Source: Halothermothrix sp.
GTDB lineage: Bacteria; Bacillota; Halanaerobiia; DY22613
Direction of reading: 5' to 3'
NCBI GenBank assembly: GCA_016841825.1
Contig: JAENYK010000003.1
Coordinates: 1 to 64,000 of the forward strand
Length of the DNA stretch: 64,000 bases
Shown here in pieces: positions 4,768-41,578 of this stretch. The translations under genes were made by a program, and so were the position numbers. The stretch's first letter is position 1, and every line of letters begins with the position of its first letter. The notes under the pieces were generated by a model. The model was not told the origin of the DNA. It worked only from the letters and a program-made list of their open reading frames with translations, and did no database searches.

Positions 4768-5461
4768 TATCTCATCCACGCACCCGCGTAGGGTGCGACA
4801 CCATTTGCTGATTTGTATTTAGATCGACAAGTATTTCAATCCACGCACCCGCGTAGGGTGCGACTTAACTACTAACGCGATAGGTTTCATTGTCGGATAT
4901 TTCAATCCACGCACCCGCGTAGGGTGCGACTTACATTATTGAGTTTGACGAATTTGAACTAATGATTTCAATCCACGCACCCGCGTAGGGTGCGACGAAA
5001 AGCTGTAGTTTGCCAGATTATCAATACCAACATTTCAATCCACGCACCCGCGTAGGGTGCGACATCAATCTAATAAATCTACAGGAATTGGATTGGGAAT
5101 TTCAATCCACGCACCCGCGTAGGGTGCGACAACTGACTATCATTGATAGATTGCTTTTCCATCTATTTCAATCCACGCACCCGCGTAGGGTGCGACAATT
5201 TTGAGGAGGCTTGATAAGCTTATCTCACTAATTTCAATCCACGCACCCGCGTAGGGTGCGACTTGCTAAGGGTTTTACAATTATGTTGACTAGTAAATTT
5301 CAATCCACGCACCCGCGTAGGGTGCGACGCTACATTCCCCATTGCAAATGTTTAATACAGATTATTTCAATCCACGCACCCGCGTAGGGTGCGACCAACG
5401 AACTGATATCCTCCCGCACGGTCCCCGAAATTTCAATCCACGCACCCGCGTAGGGTGCGAC
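4768..5461 (-). CRISPR. CRISPR array 1 (type I-C), 11 repeats, 10 spacers
   Basis: Repeats of 32 bp start at 4768, 4833, 4899, 4965, 5032, 5099, 5165, 5231, 5297, 5364 and 5430, with spacers of 33-35 bp. Read on the minus strand the repeat begins GTCGCACCC and ends GTGGATTGAAAT, the usual I-C orientation. The stem CGCACCC/GGGTGCG closes a TACGC loop. The copy at 4768 is degenerate over its first six plus-strand bases, marking the leader-distal end. The array follows cas2 on the same strand, with the leader between them. Confidence 0.97.
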
Positions 5462-5635
5462 TGTACCCAGAGAAAACGCAGTGATACCAACTCCTCATTT
5501 GACGGTTTCCGCGAACCTAGAAAAACTGCTGTATTTTCTGCTCTAAAATATGCGATCAAATTACCTCAAGCCAGATATGACAACAGGTGCGAACCTCCCA
5601 GGGTTTTTATGTTCGCTTCAGGTTCGCGGAAAATT
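5462..5635 (-). promoter_or_regulatory. CRISPR leader of array 1
   Basis: About 170 bp between array 1 and the cas2 stop, clearly similar to the flanks of arrays 2 and 3. A 13-bp inverted repeat, TTTCCGCGAACCT (5506-5518) and AGGTTCGCGGAAA (5620-5632), brackets it. A second conserved block, GGTGCGAACCTCCC then GTTTTTATGT, lies at about 5586-5612. Leaders direct transcription and spacer integration; the inverted repeat could be a protein-binding site. Confidence 0.85.
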
Positions 5636-5926
5636 CTAGATCATTATAAAGCCTTCGGGATCATATGTCTCTTTAGCTCCCACATGTTCAACTCTTTTCT
5701 TCCAATTTTTACCTAGATAATAGTAGCGTAAGCTATCTTTACTTTGATCAATCAACTTTTCCAGTTCTGTTTTAAGTACCGTAAACTGAGTAGGGTCCAC
5801 GAGGCACTCAAAAACAGAATTTTGTACCCTTTGTCCATAGTTTTCACACTGTTTTGCAACCAAACGCAACCTTTTTCTACCTTCTGAATCTTCGGTGCAT
5901 ACATCATACGTGATTAAAACCATCAT
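5636..5926 (-). CDS. cas2: CRISPR adaptation endoribonuclease-fold protein Cas2 (type I-C)
   Basis: A 96-residue ferredoxin-fold protein that forms the integration complex with Cas1. It shows the Cas2 start V-L-I-T-Y-D-V with the conserved Asp, the R-L-R-L-V-A-K-Q-C-E-N-Y-G-Q-R-V-Q-N-S-V-F-E-C segment and the L-R-Y-Y-Y-L-G strand typical of subtype I-C. Two ATG codons in tandem follow an AGAGGTGAG site; either may start it. It is the last gene of the cas operon, 20 bp after cas1, and its stop adjoins the array 1 leader. Confidence 0.96.
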   Translation of the reverse strand: MMVLITYDVCTEDSEGRKRLRLVAKQCENYGQRVQNSVFECLVDPTQFTVLKTELEKLIDQSKDSLRYYYLGKNWKKRVEHVGAKETYDPEGFIMI

Positions 5927-5946
5927 TGATATCTCACCTCTTACTC

Positions 5947-6963
5947 CTATTTGAACAAAAATGGTGGATATCCCTCTAAATCCTTTCGCAAAAATCTCGC
6001 CAAGAGTAATGACTGAACATAGGGGATAAGACCAATTTCAATTTTCTCATTCAAAAAGGGATGTATGATCTGTTCTCTTTTTCGGTTTTGCCATGCGCCA
6101 ATGACCGACTTTTTTGTATCTGAATCCATGATTATTCCACCAGATTCTTTACATACGAAACCTCTTCCATTAATCTGTTTACGGTTTATCAAAGTCAATA
6201 CCAATCTATCTACTAGATAAGGTCGAAGCTCCTCCATTAAATCCAATGCCAGACTGGCTCTCCCGGGGCGATCCCGATGCAAAAATCCAACATAAGGATC
6301 AAGTCCAACAGATTCTAACGCTGACTGAACATCATGAGCGAGAACTGTATATAGAAAGGATAATAGAGCATTCAAGTTATCTCTAGGAGGTCTTCGAGTA
6401 CGTTCATGCATGTAAAAACTATCCTTCTGAGTAAGAATCAGCTTATCGTAAGCCGAATAATATTCCCGTGCCGTATCTCCTTCCACACCTCGCAGCTCAT
6501 CCAGATTAGTACACTGTTCGATTCTATCTATCTTACCTGTTAGATTGTTCACAATCAGCTCAAGCGGTAATTGGTGATCTCTAATAGCTCGCTGCAGTAC
6601 AGCACGACAATTTAACACCTTACCTGTTATACAATTTTTGGCTATCTCCAGGGATTTATTCTCATCATCTGCTCGCCGATATTGCTCTCTTCTTAGCAGC
6701 ACATTACCTGAAACTTTACCTGTCACCCGGGCATAAAAACGCCCATACTCACTTAAAAAAGATAAGCCCACATTTCTTTCAGCACATAATTGCATTACTG
6801 CCGGGCTGGCCCCAATATAGCCAAAACAGACAATTCCTTCAAGATTATGAATTGGTATGCGAAAAATCTCTGAATTATCGACTTTAACAACAACATTTTC
6901 CCCATCTTTGGAAAGATATGATTCAGGAGTGGTTACATATAGTACATTCAATAGCTTTCTCAT
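5947..6963 (-). CDS. cas1: CRISPR integrase Cas1 (type I-C)
   Basis: 338 residues, full length for I-C Cas1. Metal-binding residues of the family are present: Glu161 (G-V-E-G), His229 (F-L-H-R-D-R-P-G-R) and Asp241 (L-A-L-D-L-M-E-E). The N-terminal beta domain and C-terminal helical domain are both complete. Cas1 joins new spacers at the leader end of the arrays together with Cas2 and, here, Cas4. Its ATG overlaps the cas4 stop by 4 bp, indicating translational coupling. Confidence 0.97.
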   Translation of the reverse strand: MRKLLNVLYVTTPESYLSKDGENVVVKVDNSEIFRIPIHNLEGIVCFGYIGASPAVMQLCAERNVGLSFLSEYGRFYARVTGKVSGNVLLRREQYRRADDENKSLEIAKNCITGKVLNCRAVLQRAIRDHQLPLELIVNNLTGKIDRIEQCTNLDELRGVEGDTAREYYSAYDKLILTQKDSFYMHERTRRPPRDNLNALLSFLYTVLAHDVQSALESVGLDPYVGFLHRDRPGRASLALDLMEELRPYLVDRLVLTLINRKQINGRGFVCKESGGIIMDSDTKKSVIGAWQNRKREQIIHPFLNEKIEIGLIPYVQSLLLARFLRKDLEGYPPFLFK

Positions 6964-7631
6964 TCTTCAGCTACCACCTTTTTTATATACTCATTCACCT
7001 TCTTTTTTTTACTAGTTATCTTTGGTTGGCAGATCTCTATCATGGAGCATAGATCACAATGTTTTCTAAGTTTTGCTTTAGGAGTTACTCCTTCCCGAAA
7101 AGTTATGTGCATTCGCTCCGCAAGTTTTTGAACTAATCCCCTCAATTCACTATCCAGAATTACTTCAGATCGCCTTTTTATTGCATTGTAAAATAGATAC
7201 CCTTTGTCAATAGTAACATTAAGCATCTCTTCCAAACATATTGCCTGCGCGCAAAGCTGCACCTCGTCTCTCGCGTCAGATTTCGGTTTGCCCCTTTTGT
7301 ACTCAACTGGAATAGGCATCCAGAACCCTGCTTTATCTTTCAAACTGACACCCTGTGACTCTGATCTGCTAAACTCGACAACATCAGCTACACCATATAA
7401 CCCTAACCTATGAGACACAAGCGGAACTGAACGTGCAATCACCAGATCTCCACGCGTTTCAACAATAAAGGGATCATCTGCCCGCTCATGGATATACTTG
7501 CCTTCAATCGTCCTGACATTTTCCTGCCATTGTTTTTCAATATGGATTAATGCCCACTGTCTTTCACAAAAGAAATAGTGCTGAATCCCTGACAGCATCA
7601 GAAAATCTTCTTCTAAATAATCGCTTCTCAT
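6960..7631 (-). CDS. cas4: Cas4 RecB-like exonuclease with Fe-S cluster
   Basis: 223 residues. The four cluster cysteines are Cys22 (Y-F-F-C-E-R) and Cys192, Cys195 and Cys201 (H-C-D-L-C-S-M-I-E-I-C). The RecB-type nuclease residues Asp83 (V-A-D-V-V) and Glu110-Tyr-Lys112 (V-E-Y-K-R-G-K-P) are intact. Cas4 trims prespacers and selects the PAM during adaptation in I-C systems. It overlaps cas7 and cas1 by 4 bp each. Confidence 0.96.
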   Translation of the reverse strand: MRSDYLEEDFLMLSGIQHYFFCERQWALIHIEKQWQENVRTIEGKYIHERADDPFIVETRGDLVIARSVPLVSHRLGLYGVADVVEFSRSESQGVSLKDKAGFWMPIPVEYKRGKPKSDARDEVQLCAQAICLEEMLNVTIDKGYLFYNAIKRRSEVILDSELRGLVQKLAERMHITFREGVTPKAKLRKHCDLCSMIEICQPKITSKKKKVNEYIKKVVAEE

Positions 7632-8491
7632 AATTTTTCTATCAGAGTAACACCTTCCGGAACTGATTGATGATCGAGCAGTACCTGATAGTCGGAATAG
7701 GCTCTGGCAGGTTTGGCAGCATCTTTTTTCTCTACCCGCAGCAGATCAAACAGCTTATGTGCAGGTGCATTACCCAAGCCAGATTGGTGCTCAAAAATAA
7801 TCAATTTCCGTACCGCCATCTTCCCTCTTGCAGCAGAGTGATCATGCTCGAACATGTTAACAATCGCTTCCCAGAGTAACTCCAAATCCTCTTGAGTAAA
7901 ATATGTCTTTTCTGCCAGGAAAGCAGATATATACCCTTCAGCCCGATACAAAGCATATGGAACAATATGCTTTCTTCCCATTGACCTCTCTTTTTCAGCA
8001 TCCTTGGCATTAGTTACCGCCATCCGGGTGATGGTTATCTCCTGCTGCGTAATCGGATCAATACTTCTGGCAAAATTGAATTGAACCGCACCTCTAACCT
8101 GACCGCAGTTTATCTCTGTAGACATTACTGCACCAAAAGCTCTTACATCATAAAAATTCTTACACATAAATTCTGTTAGTTCTACTGCCTTATCTTTAGC
8201 AGTCTTCTTATCTTTGGGATCTACATTCAACTCTTTATAAGCCTCTTTATTAGTATCATTTAATACCGAACCTTCTTTGACATATATTCTATAACCTGTA
8301 CTATCTCTTTTGGCAACCTCAACATAATTGCGAATCTTTCTCTTCAAACAGACATCTGTGACAATTCCATGTCCTGTCTCATAATCTATCCTGGGCATAT
8401 TTCCAGCATCTGGATCCCCATTGGGATTTCCATTCTCCACATCAAACAAGACAACAAACTCATACCGTTTATCTAACTTATTCATTATCAA
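7628..8491 (-). CDS. cas7: Cascade backbone protein Cas7 (type I-C, Csd2 family)
   Basis: 287 residues. It begins with the I-C Cas7 signature F-V-V-L-F-D-V-E-N-G-N-P-N-G-D-P-D-A-G-N and includes D-V-R-A-F-G-A-V-M-S-T and the G-R-K-H-I-V-P-Y-A-L-Y segment. Multiple Cas7 copies coat the crRNA in the I-C Cascade. It overlaps the 3' end of cas8 by 14 bp and the start of cas4 by 4 bp. Confidence 0.96.
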   Translation of the reverse strand: MIMNKLDKRYEFVVLFDVENGNPNGDPDAGNMPRIDYETGHGIVTDVCLKRKIRNYVEVAKRDSTGYRIYVKEGSVLNDTNKEAYKELNVDPKDKKTAKDKAVELTEFMCKNFYDVRAFGAVMSTEINCGQVRGAVQFNFARSIDPITQQEITITRMAVTNAKDAEKERSMGRKHIVPYALYRAEGYISAFLAEKTYFTQEDLELLWEAIVNMFEHDHSAARGKMAVRKLIIFEHQSGLGNAPAHKLFDLLRVEKKDAAKPARAYSDYQVLLDHQSVPEGVTLIEKL

Positions 8492-10247
8492 TTACCTCCT
8501 CAGCTTGACTAGTTGTATCTCTTTTTTGATAAAGAGCAGACTTTTGATGATAATACCCCAAAATAAACAGCCCCTGTTCTTCTGAGTTTAAATGGGTAGG
8601 AAAGCTATCTACACTCTGTAAAATCTCCTGGATATTTCGATCAGTAATATAGCCATATTTAGACTTAGTAATATGATGCTGAGCCAGATTGATCAACACT
8701 GGAAAGACCGCTCTGGGAGACGCTGAAGCTGTCCCAAAATACCTGTCTTTAATCGTACTATTCAATTTTACTTCAGCAGCATCTGCCTGAGCTTTCTCCA
8801 GTACTGCAAATAAGCGTCCCAACCTATAGGCAACATTTGTATTCTGTTCGTTTAGACTCACTGTAATCATTCCCTCCTTAACTTCATCTTTTTGAAGCCT
8901 GGCATTTCTTTTTAAGAAACCTTTGATGAATCCTGCACGAATATCATTGATCTCACCATCTGCCCGAATGCGATTGACGATTGCATAAAACAGACCCAAT
9001 GGATAGGCAGTACCGGTAAACACACTTTTCATTAATGCACCACTTAATAATGGGGCAGCTTCTTTATTCTGTGAATTTCTTGGAATAGTCTCATAAATAA
9101 GTCGGGATATGGGAATAACCTCCTGGCGCATGTCGACTATCTGCATATCCTGATGGTGCTGCCACACTTGCCGGATTAACTTGCCAAAATGATCTTTATA
9201 CCAGAATCTCACGGATACCCTGGCATTATTCGGCGACAAACCCAGGATATAAAAATTGACATCTGCCCTTTCGTGTATTGGTTTTCCTGCTTTTAAACTT
9301 TCCAGAGAGTTTTTCACATAGGCCGTTACTGCCGGGTCATGAGTAGCACCATCTGTTTCTTCCTGCTTTTCGGGGGCACATAATTCTAAAAGTAAGCTCT
9401 CACAGAATTCCCCGGACTCTTCTGCCCAAAAAACTGTTGAAGCGTCAGCAAGCTGAATACGATGTTTTGAACTATTCAGCATATAGTTTAATGCTGTCGT
9501 GTAACCAAAAGCTGTAGATTCTCCTATTGGTGAGGTATATCCCTGGGTCTTCCCATAAGATTCAAAAGCTTTGGCATTAATCCCTACTAACGTAGCACCA
9601 GCTTTATTAGCATTTCTAATTCCTTTTATATTTGGATGAGTTCTGGCTATTGATTCAATCTCCCCTGTGACCAAACACTGGCTAACGATATCACTTTCTG
9701 ATTTGGCATTATATCTCTGCCATGCTTTTAAAATCATACTATCCTCATGTAAGTAACCTGTCTCACAATCCAGCTTAAATGCAATCAATCCACCTTTACC
9801 CTTCTCCAAAAGCTCCAATTTATCCATAATCACTGCATGAGATAGACACGCTTCCGGATTCCATTTCTGAAGAAAATTTAATATAGCCATGCTTTTATCA
9901 TTATTTACATCCTGCAGAATCTGTTCCTGCAGCTCCTTAAAAGCAACAAAATAATCTGATGTGACGCCTGTTTTTTGGGGATCAAAATCCCAGCCAAATA
10001 CATACTTACTATTATCACATAGAAAATATGGTGCTAATCCACGTGCACGTTTTTTCTGCTCCGGAACAGTTAGCTCTATCCAATCAGGTTTACCTTCCCC
10101 CAGTGGGGTCAAGTCGAGCAAAACGCCTTCTCTGGAAAGGGTAGCAAAAAATTTTACTTTGGCCACACTGTATCCCGGTTTTGGTATATCAATCTCCCTG
10201 TCATTTAACAGGATATTATAATAATCATTCAATGCCTGGATAATCAA
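8478..10247 (-). CDS. cas8c: Cascade large subunit Cas8c (Csd1 family)
   Basis: About 589 residues, close to the family norm. It contains conserved Csd1 stretches such as the C-L-V-T-G-E region with A-R-T-H-P-N-I-K-G-I-R, the G-Y-T-S-P-I-G-E segment, and the P-L-L-S-G-A-L region with A-Y-P-L-G-L-F toward the C-terminus. Cas8c recognises the PAM and, in I-C, also supplies an internal Cas11-like small subunit. I prefer TTG 10247 (L-I-I-Q-A-L-N-D-Y-Y) as start: it follows GGGGGTGAGG and leaves a 13-bp gap after cas5. The upstream ATG at 10286 would run into cas5. Confidence 0.93.
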   Translation of the reverse strand: MIIQALNDYYNILLNDREIDIPKPGYSVAKVKFFATLSREGVLLDLTPLGEGKPDWIELTVPEQKKRARGLAPYFLCDNSKYVFGWDFDPQKTGVTSDYFVAFKELQEQILQDVNNDKSMAILNFLQKWNPEACLSHAVIMDKLELLEKGKGGLIAFKLDCETGYLHEDSMILKAWQRYNAKSESDIVSQCLVTGEIESIARTHPNIKGIRNANKAGATLVGINAKAFESYGKTQGYTSPIGESTAFGYTTALNYMLNSSKHRIQLADASTVFWAEESGEFCESLLLELCAPEKQEETDGATHDPAVTAYVKNSLESLKAGKPIHERADVNFYILGLSPNNARVSVRFWYKDHFGKLIRQVWQHHQDMQIVDMRQEVIPISRLIYETIPRNSQNKEAAPLLSGALMKSVFTGTAYPLGLFYAIVNRIRADGEINDIRAGFIKGFLKRNARLQKDEVKEGMITVSLNEQNTNVAYRLGRLFAVLEKAQADAAEVKLNSTIKDRYFGTASASPRAVFPVLINLAQHHITKSKYGYITDRNIQEILQSVDSFPTHLNSEEQGLFILGYYHQKSALYQKRDTTSQAEEVIDNE

Positions 10248-10260
10248 ATCCTCACCCCCT

Positions 10261-10923
<663 letters not shown>

Positions 10924-13146
10924 TTAACATAATAGCAAATCATATAATAAATCACTCCTCTGAACTACTCCTGTCTGTTCATTGTAGAATTGTTCGGTGT
11001 TAGAGATACAGTAGATACCTTTTTCGGAATCGATAACAGATATCCCACCAGTCTCCATCAACTGACGAAAATCATTTTCATATAAATTAACTATATAAGG
11101 TTGTAATCCTCTTACAATCTTATATGTATATGGAGCATATTTGAGCTCTTCAATTAAGTCTGTACATACTTCATCAGCAGGTACGATAACGGGTACTGTT
11201 TGATTTTCTATCAATTTGAATTTATGAGCAATGTCTGCGAAGGGAAAATCAACCCTCTTTGATCTTTCTCTAATATCTTTTAAGATGTCCTTCCGATCTA
11301 TATTTTTTTGGTCATAGAGCAACTCAAAATATTTGCTAATACCCGCTAAAGACAACGGATCTGCAAAATTCCTAAAGACACTATTTGCTTGACTTATGTT
11401 AATCGCGATTTCTCTTGGGGGTTGACCATACTTTTCCAGAGAAGTAAAAACATAGACATCCGCAATTGTCGATCTACCTTCCCTGTTACAGCGGCCGGCA
11501 GCCTGTGCAATGGAGTCAATTCCAGCCATCGATCTATAGACAACTGGAAAATCTACATCAACACCTGCTTCAATCAATTGAGTCGAGATTACTTTACATG
11601 GTAAAACCTCACCCAATTCTCTACTCGCTATTAATCTATCCCTGATCTCTGCCAAAACCGCTTTTCGATGCAGCGGGTACATTCTTGTACTCAGATGATA
11701 AATGCCTTCAGTATGTTTTTCTCCACAATCCTCACTACTACCATCTGCTGATACTAATTTTTCATACAATTGTCTCGCATGTTCTCTCGTGTTAACAATA
11801 CATAGAACCTGAGAATGCTTTCTCAACTCTTCAATCAAGCATTGATCATCCATGTCACCCAGGTTTTTGATCTGCGTTCTTCTAAGACATTTGTATAGGG
11901 TATCTGGAGAGTTTACAATCTCTTGTACATTTATCTCTTTTGGTAACAAAGAATCGAGATTAGGTTGAGTTGCGGTACAGAGAACAACACTGGAATTGTA
12001 ATTTGTGATAAGTTCACATAAAGCCATGAGGCTAGGTTTCAAATATTTTACCGGAAGCATCTGTGCCTCATCAAGAATAATAACACTTTTGACCAGGTTA
12101 TGTAATTTGCGAGATTTTGAATTTTTGTTGGCAAAGATTGATTCAAAAAATTGAACATTTGTGGTAACAATGATAGGCAGATCCCAATTTTCTGCAGCCA
12201 GCCTTAGCTTATTAGTTATCTCCTGAGCATCTTCATCTTCTTTGAACTGAAAATTACTATGATGCTCGAGAACATTCTCCACACCTAGAATATTGCGAAA
12301 AACTTCTGCATTTTGTTCAATAATACTCGTATAAGGTATGACATAAATAATTCTCTCCATTCCATTTTTTACAGCATGATTTAAAGCAAATGCCATCGAA
12401 GAAAGGGTCTTACCTCCCCCAGTAGGTACTGTTAATGAGAACATTCCGGAGTTACTGTCTGCTTTGGTTATACAGCTTTGTAGAATTTCAGTACGATATT
12501 TATTAATGCTGCTGCTTTCAGATTTTTCTGTAATGACTGTCATATGTTTATTAAATAGAGCTAATAGTTCTTCTATCGAAGAATAATCACCTCGATAGGT
12601 CGATTTCTGTTCTTCCATATATTTTTCTGTATCCAAAAAATCTGCATCCACCAAACAGGAGAGCAACATCTTAATAAAAAAATAAACGCTGAAAGCAATG
12701 TCACTCGTCTGCTTTATGGGAAACTGGAAATCTGTTAGATCAGGTATCTCAAGCTCTTGTTTATATGCAGAACAGTCATTGACTGATCTTAATCGTCTAT
12801 TTGCAAGGCTCCCCTCATAGTTTTCCGAGCCTGCGTCAGGAAGACCAGCATGATGTCCGCCAATTATGTAAGACATTACTTTAGCAGTCAGACCAGTATA
12901 CAACCCAAACACTTCCTGTAAACCTGGAGTCGAATGATCTACTGGCGATTTCGAGCCTTCGAGTCTTCTTTGAAATGCAGTTGAATATTTACCTATATCA
13001 TGTAAAATCCCGACTGCATAGCCCAGCTCTTTAGCCCCAAACTTTTCTGCAAAATCTCCTGCTATGCTGCCCGTCTGGGTGAGATGATCTTTCAAGAGTT
13101 GCCATTTTTCTTTAGGTTCTGCTTTACGCGAATGAGCATAGTACAT
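10924..13146 (-). CDS. cas3: Cas3 HD-nuclease/helicase (type I-C)
   Basis: 740 residues. The HD nuclease domain (about 1-205) has His49-Asp50 (L-H-D-I-G-K), His71, His98-His99 (G-G-H-H-A-G) and Asp167/Asp169. The helicase part has Walker A P-T-G-G-G-K-T (241-247), D-E-A-Q (359-362), T-A-T-Q (391-394) and the Q-A-A-G-R-C-N-R-E-G motif. All key residues are intact, so interference is probably functional. It is the first gene of the operon, with AGGAGGCGAAAAAT before ATG. Cas3 is recruited by Cascade to unwind and degrade target DNA. Confidence 0.97.
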   Translation of the reverse strand: MYYAHSRKAEPKEKWQLLKDHLTQTGSIAGDFAEKFGAKELGYAVGILHDIGKYSTAFQRRLEGSKSPVDHSTPGLQEVFGLYTGLTAKVMSYIIGGHHAGLPDAGSENYEGSLANRRLRSVNDCSAYKQELEIPDLTDFQFPIKQTSDIAFSVYFFIKMLLSCLVDADFLDTEKYMEEQKSTYRGDYSSIEELLALFNKHMTVITEKSESSSINKYRTEILQSCITKADSNSGMFSLTVPTGGGKTLSSMAFALNHAVKNGMERIIYVIPYTSIIEQNAEVFRNILGVENVLEHHSNFQFKEDEDAQEITNKLRLAAENWDLPIIVTTNVQFFESIFANKNSKSRKLHNLVKSVIILDEAQMLPVKYLKPSLMALCELITNYNSSVVLCTATQPNLDSLLPKEINVQEIVNSPDTLYKCLRRTQIKNLGDMDDQCLIEELRKHSQVLCIVNTREHARQLYEKLVSADGSSEDCGEKHTEGIYHLSTRMYPLHRKAVLAEIRDRLIASRELGEVLPCKVISTQLIEAGVDVDFPVVYRSMAGIDSIAQAAGRCNREGRSTIADVYVFTSLEKYGQPPREIAINISQANSVFRNFADPLSLAGISKYFELLYDQKNIDRKDILKDIRERSKRVDFPFADIAHKFKLIENQTVPVIVPADEVCTDLIEELKYAPYTYKIVRGLQPYIVNLYENDFRQLMETGGISVIDSEKGIYCISNTEQFYNEQTGVVQRSDLLYDLLLC

Positions 13147-13374
13147 ATTTTTCGCCTCCTCAGAAATTAATGATTTTTAATCACTTTGAGTCATTACTGT
13201 CACATAGTGTGATTTTATAAAATAGAAGGGAATCTTTATTGCCTTAATTCGCTATTTACGGCAAAATACCTGCTTTTTTTATTGAAAAATGTTATATTAT
13301 GCTATACTTTAACATGGAGTTAATTTGTGATATGCAGCCTACAAGATTGAATCATATATATATAGACCTGTTAA
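13147..13374 (-). promoter_or_regulatory. Promoter region of the cas operon
   Basis: AT-rich region between cas3 and the distal end of array 2. It contains a perfect 13-bp palindrome TCACATAGTGTGA (13200-13212) 54 bp upstream of the cas3 start, a plausible operator. I do not see a convincing -10/-35 pair. Confidence 0.45.
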
Positions 13375-13670
13375 TCAAAAATTTACGCACCCGCATAGGG
13401 TGCGACCTCCTTGTCCAAAGTGTGGCAAAACTAATTTTCGATTTCAATCCACGCACCCGCATAGGGTGCGACTTAATGGTGAAAGGAGAGGGACTCTCTT
13501 ACGCTGATTTCAATCCACGCACCCGCATAGGGTGCGACAATTCTTTTGCTTTTTGATTTATAAGCATTTTTTGATTTCAATCCACGCACCCGCATAGGGT
13601 GCGACATTCGGATATAGTTGATATGAGAGAGGGAGGCAATTTCAATCCACGCACCCGCATAGGGTGCGAC
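13375..13670 (-). CRISPR. CRISPR array 2 (type I-C), 5 repeats, 4 spacers
   Basis: Repeats start at 13375 (degenerate 5' part on the plus strand), 13441, 13507, 13574 and 13639. The repeat equals that of array 1 except for the loop, which reads TATGC on the minus strand. It has the same orientation as the cas genes, with the leader on its right side. Confidence 0.96.
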
Positions 13671-13840
13671 TGTACCCAGAGAAAATGCAGTGATACCAAT
13701 ACATCATCTGACCGTTTCCGCGAACCTCGAAAAACTGCTACATTTTTTGCTCCAAAATATGGTGTCAAAACGTCTTACGCTAGATATGACAATGGGTGTG
13801 AACCTCCCAGTGTTTTTATGTTCGCTTCAGGTTCGCGGAG
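13671..13840 (-). promoter_or_regulatory. CRISPR leader of array 2
   Basis: Strongly similar to the array 1 leader, including the opening TGTACCCAGAGAAAA, the TTTCCGCGAACCT block, the GTGAACCTCCC then GTTTTTATGT block, and the closing AGGTTCGCGG. Arrays 1 and 2 share more leader identity with each other than with array 3. Confidence 0.85.
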
Positions 13841-13984
13841 ATGCTATATAGTTAGAAAATATCAGCTCATATGTCTCTTAGCCCCCACATCTTCAACCCT
13901 TTCTTCAGCTAAACAATATAACACCTAACAGTTATGCGATTATGGCTACTATCCAGAATATCTTCAGCAAGCTATTTTATCAGT
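13841..13984. other. Spacer between leader 2 and RAMP remnant
   Basis: No frame or repeat recognised beyond the leader. Confidence 0.5.
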
Positions 13985-14347
13985 TTATCCCTGCATCACT
14001 CCATAACCAACTGCTGTTTTGGCCCCTATTCCATGCTCCTCTAATGCTTTTTTTATAATTCCTCTAATGTATCCTTTTAATTCCTCAAATATTAAGCTAT
14101 CGCTAATCTTAATTACGACAGAATCTTTAATCCAGTGCAAAGATTCGCATAATTTATTATACTTATTTATTGGTAGGTTATCAGTAAAGACTTTTTTGTT
14201 AATCTTCTGTATTGTTCTTGAAGACTCAGTCTCATAAGTTTCGGCATCTGTAGTTTTAATATTCGTAGTCCGATTATTCTTTGCTTTTCGTAAGTTTAAG
14301 ATAATAAGCGAATTATTATTTCTAACTATCTCTTTCTTTTCATCTCC
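13985..14347 (-). pseudogene. RAMP-family (Cmr6-like) C-terminal remnant or frameshifted small RAMP
   Basis: A minus-strand open frame of 120 codons ends in G-I-G-A-K-T-A-V-G-Y-G-V-M-Q-G. This is the glycine-rich C-terminal motif of RAMP proteins such as Cmr6. It has no start codon: an upstream TAA closes the frame and the only well-placed ATG (14343, behind GGGAGGTAAGGAG) is out of frame. One extra A in the A-run after that ATG would give a 121-residue protein beginning M-K-K-K-E-I-V. No other type III gene is present. It is either decayed type III-B material or a recently frameshifted small RAMP. Confidence 0.6.
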
Positions 14348-14604
14348 TTACCTCCCAAAATTCATAATTAATTTTCAAATAATATATTTCCCCTTTATTT
14401 CCAATACTCCTTTAATTTTAATTAATTTTGATATAACATTAAATAATATCGTTGTAAATCCCTTCTTGCACTACCTTTCAAAAGAGAACTTATCTAGAGC
14501 AATAGGTTATTTAAAGTTTACCAAAAGCTTTTTTGAGAATATAACTAACACACACTACTCTATAATAGATTCTTCTGCAGTAAAGCACTATTGTTCCCTG
14601 AAAA

Positions 14605-36655: not shown

Positions 36656-37168
36656 TCAATCTCCTTTGAGTAGCAAATCCATCTGTTCTTTAATAATCTC
36701 GGCAATATCTTTAGTAATCTCTCCGACTTTTTGCCAATTAAACTCTTTCTCCATTTCATTAAATGTATCCTTCGCACTTTTAATAACCTGATTAAAACGA
36801 TCTTTCAAACCAGATGTCTCAATGTCTTTTTCAATACAGAGCTTCCACGTCTTTAATCCATCCGAAATATGTCCCAAACCTTCTTTAAACAGTTCAAACG
36901 CCTTATCAGAATCATCATTTTTATACATTATAATTGCTTCTTCAAATCGCTCCATAGACAGTTCAAAATAGAAGTTAACCCGCTTCTCTGGAGGCATAAA
37001 AAAAATATTAACCTTCTCTTCCAATCTGTCTATAAAATAAAATGGTGAATTAGGTGCTAAATTATCCGCTTCACCTTCTCTAGCCGCATAAATAGCTCCG
37101 CTACCACTCCAGATTATTAGTCCACACAAAATCAAAGCCATCATACCTACCCGAAAAATTTTGTTCAT
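36656..37168 (-). CDS. Exported DUF5667-like helical protein
   Basis: 170 residues. Signal peptide about 1-29 (ending A-I-Y-A-A), then the N-L-A-P-N-S-P-F-Y-F-I-D-R-L-E-E-K motif that opens DUF5667 proteins and P-P-E-K-R-V-N-F-Y-F-E-L. The rest is amphipathic helix. Function unknown; family members are exported helical domains in Firmicutes. Confidence 0.7.
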   Translation of the reverse strand: MNKIFRVGMMALILCGLIIWSGSGAIYAAREGEADNLAPNSPFYFIDRLEEKVNIFFMPPEKRVNFYFELSMERFEEAIIMYKNDDSDKAFELFKEGLGHISDGLKTWKLCIEKDIETSGLKDRFNQVIKSAKDTFNEMEKEFNWQKVGEITKDIAEIIKEQMDLLLKGD

Positions 37169-37781: not shown

Positions 37782-38237
37782 ATGCAATTAGTAAAATGTC
37801 CTTTTTGTTCAGAAGAGATATATCTTACCGAGCAGTTTAAAGACACAACACTCTGTCCGTACTGCAAAGAGAAAATTGATGATCTTGCATCTTTGCCAAT
37901 AATATCTGAAAAAACTTATCATATCAATAAAAATAACCCCAGTGCTTCCAGCAGAAAATTTTTGACTCCTCTGATTATTGATTTTGTTTACTGGCTTTTA
38001 GTTGTTGGGATTGTGTTAATCGGACTCCAGTTTTCACAATTATGGCTAAAACTAACCATTATTATCATAAGTAATATTATTTTGAGGTTATATTATGAAT
38101 CTCTGATTCTATTTTTTAGTTTTCATGAACAAGTAGTGCTGCAAAATAAGCAATCACAAAAAACAAATGAGCTTTTAGGAGAATTATTAGCAGAAGTAAA
38201 ATCTAAAAATGAAAATACTAAAAAATCTGTAAGTTAA
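37782..38237 (+). CDS. Zinc-ribbon membrane protein
   Basis: 151 residues, start behind GGAAGGTGATTAAAA. N-terminal zinc ribbon with C-P-F-C (5-8 region) and C-P-Y-C (about 26-29), two membrane segments (about 65-105), and a charged C-terminal helix (L-L-G-E-L-L-A-E-V-K-S-K). Function unknown; the fold is common in Firmicutes proteins of the DUF4282 style. Confidence 0.7.
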   Translation: MQLVKCPFCSEEIYLTEQFKDTTLCPYCKEKIDDLASLPIISEKTYHINKNNPSASSRKFLTPLIIDFVYWLLVVGIVLIGLQFSQLWLKLTIIIISNIILRLYYESLILFFSFHEQVVLQNKQSQKTNELLGELLAEVKSKNENTKKSVS

Positions 38238-38417: not shown

Positions 38418-38450
38418 AAAAACGGGGCTGCCTCATTTTGAGACAACCCC
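38418..38450 (-). terminator. Terminator of the Cys-rich peptide gene
   Basis: On the minus strand GGGGTTGTCTCA, 3-nt loop, TGAGGCAGCCCC, then GTTTTT: twelve base pairs including G-T pairs. It begins 14 bp beyond the peptide stop. Confidence 0.85.
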
Positions 38451-38463
38451 CCATGGAGAATTT

Positions 38464-38559
38464 CTATGGGCATTCACCCGGGCCAGAACAACCAACATAT
38501 TTAGGACACCAATATGCATCATATGGACAGTTCTCGTTATAGTATTTAATTTCTGTCAT
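38464..38559 (-). CDS. 31-residue Cys-rich peptide
   Basis: Start ATG 38559 behind GGGAGGAGAGAGAA, an ideal site. The product opens M-T-E-I-K-Y-Y-N-E-N, then C-P-Y-D-A-Y-W-C-P-K-Y-V-G-C-S-G-P-G-E-C-P: four cysteines (11, 18, 24, 30), aromatic and proline rich, no signal peptide. A dedicated strong terminator follows, so this is a real short transcription unit. It may be a metal-binding or disulfide peptide, or a modified-peptide precursor; no modification enzyme lies nearby. No family recognised. Confidence 0.7.
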   Translation of the reverse strand: MTEIKYYNENCPYDAYWCPKYVGCSGPGECP

Positions 38560-39040
38560 TTCTCTCTCCTCCCTTCTTATGTAAAATTTTATTAGTTAAT
38601 ATTTTCTATATTCTTTAATAATTTGTGTTTTCCTCCTTTTTATAATTTTTTTTATACCAATCTACAGATTAGAAGGATAGATCAAAAAATCGCTAACCTC
38701 CGTTTCACATACATGTGACCTTCTCCTCTATTTATAGACTTAAAATTGCATGAACCACAGTTCACACTTCAAATCCCCATTTTAGATCAAAGTGTTGTTT
38801 GACATAATCCGTTTTAACCTTTCATAAGACATTTTTTACAACAAAAAAGACCACCTATATTTAGCTGGTCTAAACAATTTATGCATATTAGGTTTTACTT
38901 AAACTATAATCACCTAACTCATGTAATTACCGATATTATTGACTTTATTGAGATTGTCAAAAACCATACTCCTAAACACATAGTAAAACAAGTTTATCTA
39001 TGTAATAACAGTATGACTGTTGACTTGTTTTATCTCAAAA
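38560..39040. other. Intergenic region upstream of the peptide gene
   Basis: AT-rich. Contains the promoter region of the Cys-rich peptide and a minus-strand hairpin with T-run (AGACCACC / AGCTGGTCT, 38848-38871), a second terminator-like structure after the tRNA-Pro transcript. The frame at 38881-39186 runs through the tRNA and is not called. Confidence 0.5.
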
Positions 39041-39085: not shown

Positions 39086-39163
39086 TGGTCGGGCTGGCCA
39101 GATTTGAACTGGCGGCCTCACGCCCCCCAGACGTGCGCGCTAACCGAACTGCGCTACAGCCCG
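39086..39163 (-). tRNA. tRNA-Pro (GGG)
   Basis: 78 nt including encoded CCA. Acceptor CGGGCTG/CAGCCCG, D-arm GCGC...GCGC, anticodon stem CACGT/GCGTG with loop CTGGGGG (anticodon GGG), T-arm GCCAG-TTCAAAT-CTGGC. Confidence 0.95.
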
Positions 39164-39252: not shown

Positions 39253-39558
39253 TTATTTAACAAAATCCATCCTCTTGATTACCTCTATCATCTTATCAGG
39301 CTCATCTGTCACAACAAATACCTCCTGTAGTGAAGAGTTAGTCTTAGCAATTAATTTAATCCCTGAAGGTGTGTTATATTTTAACTGCAAATAAGGCTGA
39401 ATTCCCCCACCTCCACTGCGTCGATTAATTCTGCCCGGAATAATGCTATGCACTAGATTCAAATCTGCAAGTTTTAATAACAAAGGGTAAATATCTTCAA
39501 TAATCGTATGCTCCTGTTTTATCTTATTAGCTCTATATTTGCCACCCATATAATCCAT
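39253..39558 (-). CDS. DUF2103-like protein
   Basis: 101 residues. It carries the conserved G-G-K-Y-R-A-N-K-I-K-Q-E-H-T-I-I-E start, the P-G-R-I-N-R-R-S-G-G-G-G segment and a C-terminal L-K-Y-N-T-P-S-G-I-K-L-I-A-K-T strand of the DUF2103 family, which I recognise by pattern. Probably a small nucleic-acid- or metal-binding protein; function not known. Confidence 0.75.
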   Translation of the reverse strand: MDYMGGKYRANKIKQEHTIIEDIYPLLLKLADLNLVHSIIPGRINRRSGGGGIQPYLQLKYNTPSGIKLIAKTNSSLQEVFVVTDEPDKMIEVIKRMDFVK

Positions 39559-41148: not shown

Positions 41149-41224
41149 GCCAGCGTGGCTCAATTGGCAGAGCAGCTGACTTGTAATCAGCAGGTTATCG
41201 GTTCAACTCCGATCGCTGGCTCCA
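41149..41224 (+). tRNA. tRNA-Thr (UGU), copy 1
   Basis: 76 nt with encoded CCA. Acceptor GCCAGCG/CGCTGGC, anticodon stem GCTGA/TCAGC with loop CTTGTAA (anticodon TGT), T-arm ATCGG/CCGAT. Confidence 0.96.
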
Positions 41225-41245
41225 TTTTTCTTAAAAACTATTTAT

Positions 41246-41321
41246 ACGGGTGTAGCTCAGTTGGTAGAGCAGTGGACTCCAAATCCACGTGCCCCGGGTT
41301 CAAGTCCTGGCACCCGTGCCA
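41246..41321 (+). tRNA. tRNA-Trp (CCA), copy 1
   Basis: 76 nt with encoded CCA. Acceptor ACGGGTG/CACCCGT, anticodon stem GTGGA/TCCAC with loop CTCCAAA (anticodon CCA), T-arm CCGGG/CCTGG. Confidence 0.96.
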
Positions 41322-41325
41322 TCAT

Positions 41326-41401
41326 GCCAGCGTGGCTCAATTGGCAGAGCAGCTGACTTGTAATCAGCAGGTTATCGGTTCAACTCCGATCGCTGGCTCC
41401 A
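41326..41401 (+). tRNA. tRNA-Thr (UGU), copy 2
   Basis: Identical to copy 1. Confidence 0.96.
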
Positions 41402-41422
41402 TTTTTCTTAAAAACTATTTAT

Positions 41423-41498
41423 ACGGGTGTAGCTCAGTTGGTAGAGCAGTGGACTCCAAATCCACGTGCCCCGGGTTCAAGTCCTGGCACCCGTGCCA
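41423..41498 (+). tRNA. tRNA-Trp (CCA), copy 2
   Basis: Identical to copy 1. Confidence 0.96.
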
Positions 41499-41502
41499 TC
41501 AT

Positions 41503-41578
41503 GCCAGCGTGGCTCAATTGGCAGAGCAGCTGACTTGTAATCAGCAGGTTATCGGTTCAACTCCGATCGCTGGCTCCA
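41503..41578 (+). tRNA. tRNA-Thr (UGU), copy 3
   Basis: Identical to copies 1 and 2; last gene before the terminator. Confidence 0.96.

Follow-up and report, generated by a model that had tools for sequence, protein, structure and literature searches.

A 31-residue, four-cysteine peptide gene without detectable relatives in Halothermothrix sp.: a candidate metal-binding miniprotein

Genomic Context of the Peptide Unit

Analysis of a 64,000-nt stretch of DNA from Halothermothrix sp. (contig JAENYK010000003.1, positions 1 to 64,000; hereafter, the window) located a 31-codon ORF on the minus strand (38464–38559, including the stop codon). The unit sits in an 850-bp intergenic gap that reaches from a tRNA-Pro(GGG) gene (39086–39163, minus strand) to a convergent gene on the plus strand (37782–38237). 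The product of the latter is predicted to be a membrane protein whose N-terminal head, with CxxC/CxxC, resembles a zinc-binding site; the gene is patchily distributed, being present in 2 of 31 genomes. The conserved upstream neighbors are the tRNA-Pro gene and a DUF2103 gene (39253–39558, minus strand), which was conserved in 24 of 25 relatives and adjoined by tRNA-Pro in about 15. The peptide ORF was absent from the flanking stretches fetched at DUF2103/tRNA-Pro of these relatives. Elsewhere in the window, a tandem tRNA-Thr/Trp/Thr/Trp/Thr cluster lies in a 177-bp repeat at 41149–41578, and similar Thr/Trp tRNA clusters adjoin DUF2103/tRNA-Pro in relatives. A Type I-C CRISPR-Cas locus with matched Cas1c and Cas7c occupies positions of about 5300–14600, and its repeat arrays translate as NFNPRTRVGCD in one frame.

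Between the peptide unit and tRNA-Pro, a 46-nt stretch (38843–38888) shares 89% identity with the 3′ end of a coiled-coil gene, including its terminator, on contig C14 of the same genome, and it contains a terminator-like hairpin (38846–38871, minus strand). Judged from this identity, the stretch is probably the debris of a decayed coiled-coil gene copy with an intact relative on C14, and the presence of what seems a decayed gene end marks the gap as a variable spot. A promoter-like site, TTGACA-16-TAATAT, lies just upstream of the stretch at 38960–38933, which makes a small RNA of approximately 85 nt possible. An origin by a mobile element or tRNA integration was considered and rejected, as the tRNA end is not repeated in the flanks.

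Anatomy of the Peptide Gene

The ORF begins with ATG at 38559, ends with TAG at 38466–38464, and encodes MTEIKYYNENCPYDAYWCPKYVGCSGPGECP. The initial annotation had described 31 codons with cysteines at positions 11, 18, 24, and 30 and stated no strand; the ORF translation agrees with this description and assigns the unit to the minus strand. The ideal ribosome-binding site that had been claimed was read directly in aagaagggaggagagagaaATG as the Shine-Dalgarno sequence GGGAGGAG (38567–38574, minus strand), of which the GGAGG is separated from the ATG by an ideal distance of 8 nt. The calculated mass of the product is 3.58 kDa, with a pI of 4.4 and a net charge of about −2.5. It contains five Tyr, one Trp, four Cys, four Pro, and three Gly residues, and Tyr, Cys, Pro, and Gly together make up roughly half of the peptide. 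Being acidic and non-hydrophobic, it is unlike small membrane toxins. The cysteines follow the pattern C-x6-C-x5-C-x5-C, with three of them in Cys-Pro turns; inspection of the sequence revealed no CxxC pair, and no signal sequence was seen by eye. A single-sequence AlphaFold model of the peptide was of low confidence (mean pLDDT of 57.7) and uninformative.

An intrinsic terminator was detected by terminator scan and folding at 38424–38450 (minus strand), starting 13 nt past the stop codon. It consists of a 12-bp stem, in which 7 of the 12 pairs are G-C, a 3-nt loop, and a T-run in the tail GTTTTTAT. The folding z-score of this stretch was −4.9, and none of 200 shuffled sequences was equally stable. 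The 12-bp terminator with T-run named in the initial annotation is indeed present. The hairpin GGGGTTGTCTCAAAATGAGGCAGCCCC or close variants of it occur at 38424–38450 of the window and also on contigs C10, C30, C27, C22, C16, and C2; the copies at loci L032 and L041 adjoin a common flank of about 50 nt, which suggests a mobile-element end. The other copies follow unrelated sequence, so the idea of a repeat family in which this terminator accompanies similar peptides was discarded.

The likely promoter stretch of the unit extends from the upstream terminator-like hairpin to the ORF (38575–38840, minus strand). A consensus scan found no minus-strand sigma-70-type promoter between 38840 and the ATG, and no sporulation-type promoter ahead of the ORF was identified by eye. 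The locus matched no Rfam family. From the gene anatomy, the unit would be transcribed as a short independent message, and the ORF would be translated from it.

Assessment of Chance Occurrence

A census of ATG-started intergenic ORFs of 20–50 aa was performed over 2.4 of the 5.1 Mb of the host genome (476 kb intergenic), and the results were compared with 30 replicates of first-order Markov sequences of matching composition. With criteria that were picked after the 31-codon ORF had been seen, nine ORFs combined a Shine-Dalgarno sequence with at least four cysteines, against 0.4 expected, and two of them additionally had a strong terminator within 70 nt, against none in the 30 replicates. Given these excesses, this arrangement of elements is unlikely to have arisen by accident, and the 31-codon ORF is very probably a real gene. 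Folding, the terminator scan, and the census thus support the earlier description of the unit as a tiny gene that stands alone and has a terminator of its own. The codon usage of the ORF was neutral, which is uninformative at 31 codons, and its coding score was no better than the average of Shine-Dalgarno-bearing short ORFs.

Search for Relatives

The peptide matched nothing in Pfam, NCBIfam, PHROGs, or PADLOC, and for Pfam and NCBIfam this held even at an E value of 10. Nothing above chance was found among PDB sequences, and phage and plasmid records contained no relative by either protein or DNA comparison. Searches with tblastn and HMMER detected no relative in the phylum, for which roughly 450 whole genomes were covered, 58 of them from the class. 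The initial statement that the peptide resembles nothing known therefore holds across all of these collections, and the homology search for short ORFs in related genomes that it had proposed yielded no relative at the level of phylum, class, or family. The scope of the search for relatives was 398 genomes across the phylum and, in a search of the class, 59 genomes including that of the window itself. The nearest genome, the only other one of the family, belongs to a different genus, and neither the gene nor its intergenic DNA was found there; besides the host, no genome of the host's own genus was found. The sole match among the 398 phylum genomes (L028; E value, 0.014) has a stop inside the frame. 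The other weak homology matches were inspected and judged to be chance, since most lack a start or lie in frames that are broken or misaligned, and a small number fall inside a 200-residue enzyme.

The Cys/Pro framework was also searched as a DNA pattern in viral and genome collections, and no comparable short ORF was present among the matches listed and read. Matches of CPY....WCP.Y in viral contigs either lacked a start or belonged to unrelated proteins of greater length. The possibility that the peptide is a fragment of a larger protein was rejected, because the open frame spans only 43 aa and matches no family. Since no relatives were detectable, the gene appears, as far as can be seen from sequence comparison among the genomes searched, to be limited to the host genus or species. 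The literature on such a peptide provided only background on micro-proteins and peptides encoded by small RNAs; among small RNAs alone, an average of 29 short unannotated coding ORFs per species has been predicted (PMC5521070).

Comparison With Known Small Cysteine-Rich Proteins

The CPxCG-related zinc-finger micro-proteins occur in archaea and, in smaller numbers, in bacteria, with Brz as an example (PMC2253796). They are defined by two Cys/His pairs (Cx2-3C) located 7–40 residues apart, at least one of which is CPxCG, CPxCx, or CxxCG (PMC2253796). Like these micro-proteins, the peptide is a very short, single-domain product with four potential metal-binding cysteines, of a kind overlooked by annotation and often of unknown function, and its 31 residues fall within their size range (<100 residues, no other domains). 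However, its cysteines are single, separated by 6, 5, and 5 residues rather than by the 2–3 of a pair. Without such pairs, the peptide was not assigned to the CPxCG-related group, although by analogy it may work similarly.

The small DUF1540 and zinc-ribbon proteins of Firmicutes are likewise small, Cys-rich, stand-alone ORFs, and examples are present in the host genome. The peptide did not match DUF1540 (PF07561) at an E value of ≤10, whereas another host ORF did. Frames in genomes G018 and G031, belonging to a 200-residue enzyme that we take to be cobinamide-adenosyltransferase-like, showed a weak match (36–39% over 28 residues, GCPYAAL...CTGCGEC). With E values of about 0.2–0.5 and a location within that enzyme, this similarity was considered a chance resemblance.

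Other Tiny Cysteine-Rich ORFs of the Host Genome

A second orphan, the 45-aa peptide MIKVVVPCKIACPSFPIGTPVDENGCPGSLCPYYGHCEYTKPTPF, is encoded on contig C14 (G000:C14:163–300; L167, L093) behind a strong ribosome-binding site. A long imperfect hairpin, GAGCTGTCTCA ... TGAGACAGCCC, with a T-run starts about 150 nt downstream. This peptide had no match better than an E value of 0.004 in the other genomes among 299 searched. It shares with the window peptide the CP..CP..C arrangement, the strong ribosome-binding site, the orphan status, and the genome, but it has 45 residues and five cysteines in another spacing, and the two can be aligned only over a short CP..CPxY..C segment. The resemblance is too short a stretch of sequence to prove common descent.

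A 35-aa stand-alone zinc ribbon (CPWCG ... CLDCG) is encoded on contig C21 (G000:C21; L375, 12904–13011), with a terminator directly past the stop codon. On contig C2 (G000:C2; L180, 11309–11419), the 36-aa ORF MRKYQVPQLKSLETVARSCGSGGCCSGNIAIEKELN has a perfect AGGAGG site and no family match, and with its Cys/Gly/Ser core it possibly resembles a precursor of a ribosomally made, modified peptide (RiPP). The census also recovered a DUF1540 protein and a 44-aa Cys-rich peptide with good start sites.

Possible Functions of the Peptide

We tentatively favor, at somewhat less than even probability, a predicted role as a lineage-restricted, stand-alone, cytosolic Cys4 metal-binding miniprotein. The 31-residue product would stay in the cytosol, in which its thiols would be kept reduced if the host is, as presumed, an anaerobe; a single zinc or iron ion could then be bound by all four cysteines, of which three lie in Cys-Pro turns, and the aromatic residues may pack around this putative site in a miniature fold. 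The anaerobic lifestyle, the cytosolic location, and the metal binding are all suppositions of this proposal. Other tiny Shine-Dalgarno-bearing Cys ORFs in the 2.4 Mb surveyed look like true metal sites or members of established families of small Cys proteins, and the zinc-ribbon and DUF1540 ORFs indicate that such proteins are encoded in this manner in the host genome. On the other hand, intervals of 6, 5, and 5 residues with no CxxC are unusual for zinc or rubredoxin-like sites, and no homologue that would show selection on the cysteines was found among the genomes searched. A more specific proposal, in which the peptide would be a newly arisen orphan with an undescribed cysteine spacing (C-x6-C-x5-C-x5-C), putatively metal-binding and belonging to a number of tiny Cys-rich proteins of the lineage that are unrelated to one another, is doubtful.

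The strongest competing proposal is a small peptide of the spore coat or exosporium that would be cross-linked within the spore shell by disulfide or dityrosine bonds; we regard it as possible but rather unlikely. The host encodes spoIVA (753.9 bits against a cut-off of 459.9) and should therefore sporulate, and the abundance of Tyr, Cys, Pro, and Gly in the peptide would suit a coat component. A fast-evolving coat peptide confined to one lineage would also account for the absence of relatives, and the lack of a vegetative-type promoter upstream would fit as well. However, the stretch ahead of the ORF offered no sporulation-type promoter by eye either, no known family matched, and no coat gene was recognized nearby. 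That the locus instead yields a short transcript whose translation is absent or incidental, a small RNA or debris in which the ORF arose by chance, is a less probable reading, to which we give about one chance in five. The variable gap with its probable remnant of a decayed gene, the absence of the ORF from all relatives searched, and a coding score at the level of average Shine-Dalgarno-bearing short ORFs are in its favor, but the simulations never produced the ribosome-binding site, start, Cys content, and terminator together, and Rfam contained no corresponding family.

Two further explanations assign the peptide to processing or regulation. As a RiPP precursor, it would have the Cys-rich C-terminal 21 residues as its core, in agreement with its small size, its richness in Cys, and the lack of Cys among its first ten residues. 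This is improbable because ten residues make a very short leader and because the listed ORFs of the window, part of which were family-searched, included no conspicuous gene for a radical-SAM, lanthionine, or YcaO enzyme or a dedicated exporter; moreover, no NCBIfam precursor model matched. An ORF with Cys, Tyr, and Pro codons followed at once by a terminator also has the anatomy of an attenuator, in which the peptide would be a regulatory leader. Such a role is highly improbable, as no same-strand gene follows nearby: the next one starts at 37168, about 1.25 kb away and behind the convergent gene at 37782–38237. The predicted fold also keeps the terminator intact, with no evident rival hairpin.

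Implications

Taken together, the 31-residue peptide is probably a further instance of a known phenomenon, with a cysteine pattern that is unusual, and its role would most likely be either to hold a metal ion, as we prefer, or to help build the spore coat. The finding opens no new mechanism on its own. If translated, the unit represents a clean example of a miniprotein gene that is specific to its lineage and carries start and stop signals of its own, and the 31-mer is small enough for chemical synthesis and a direct metal-binding test. Such a gene would also point to a group of tiny Cys-rich genes in the host genome that standard annotation overlooks.
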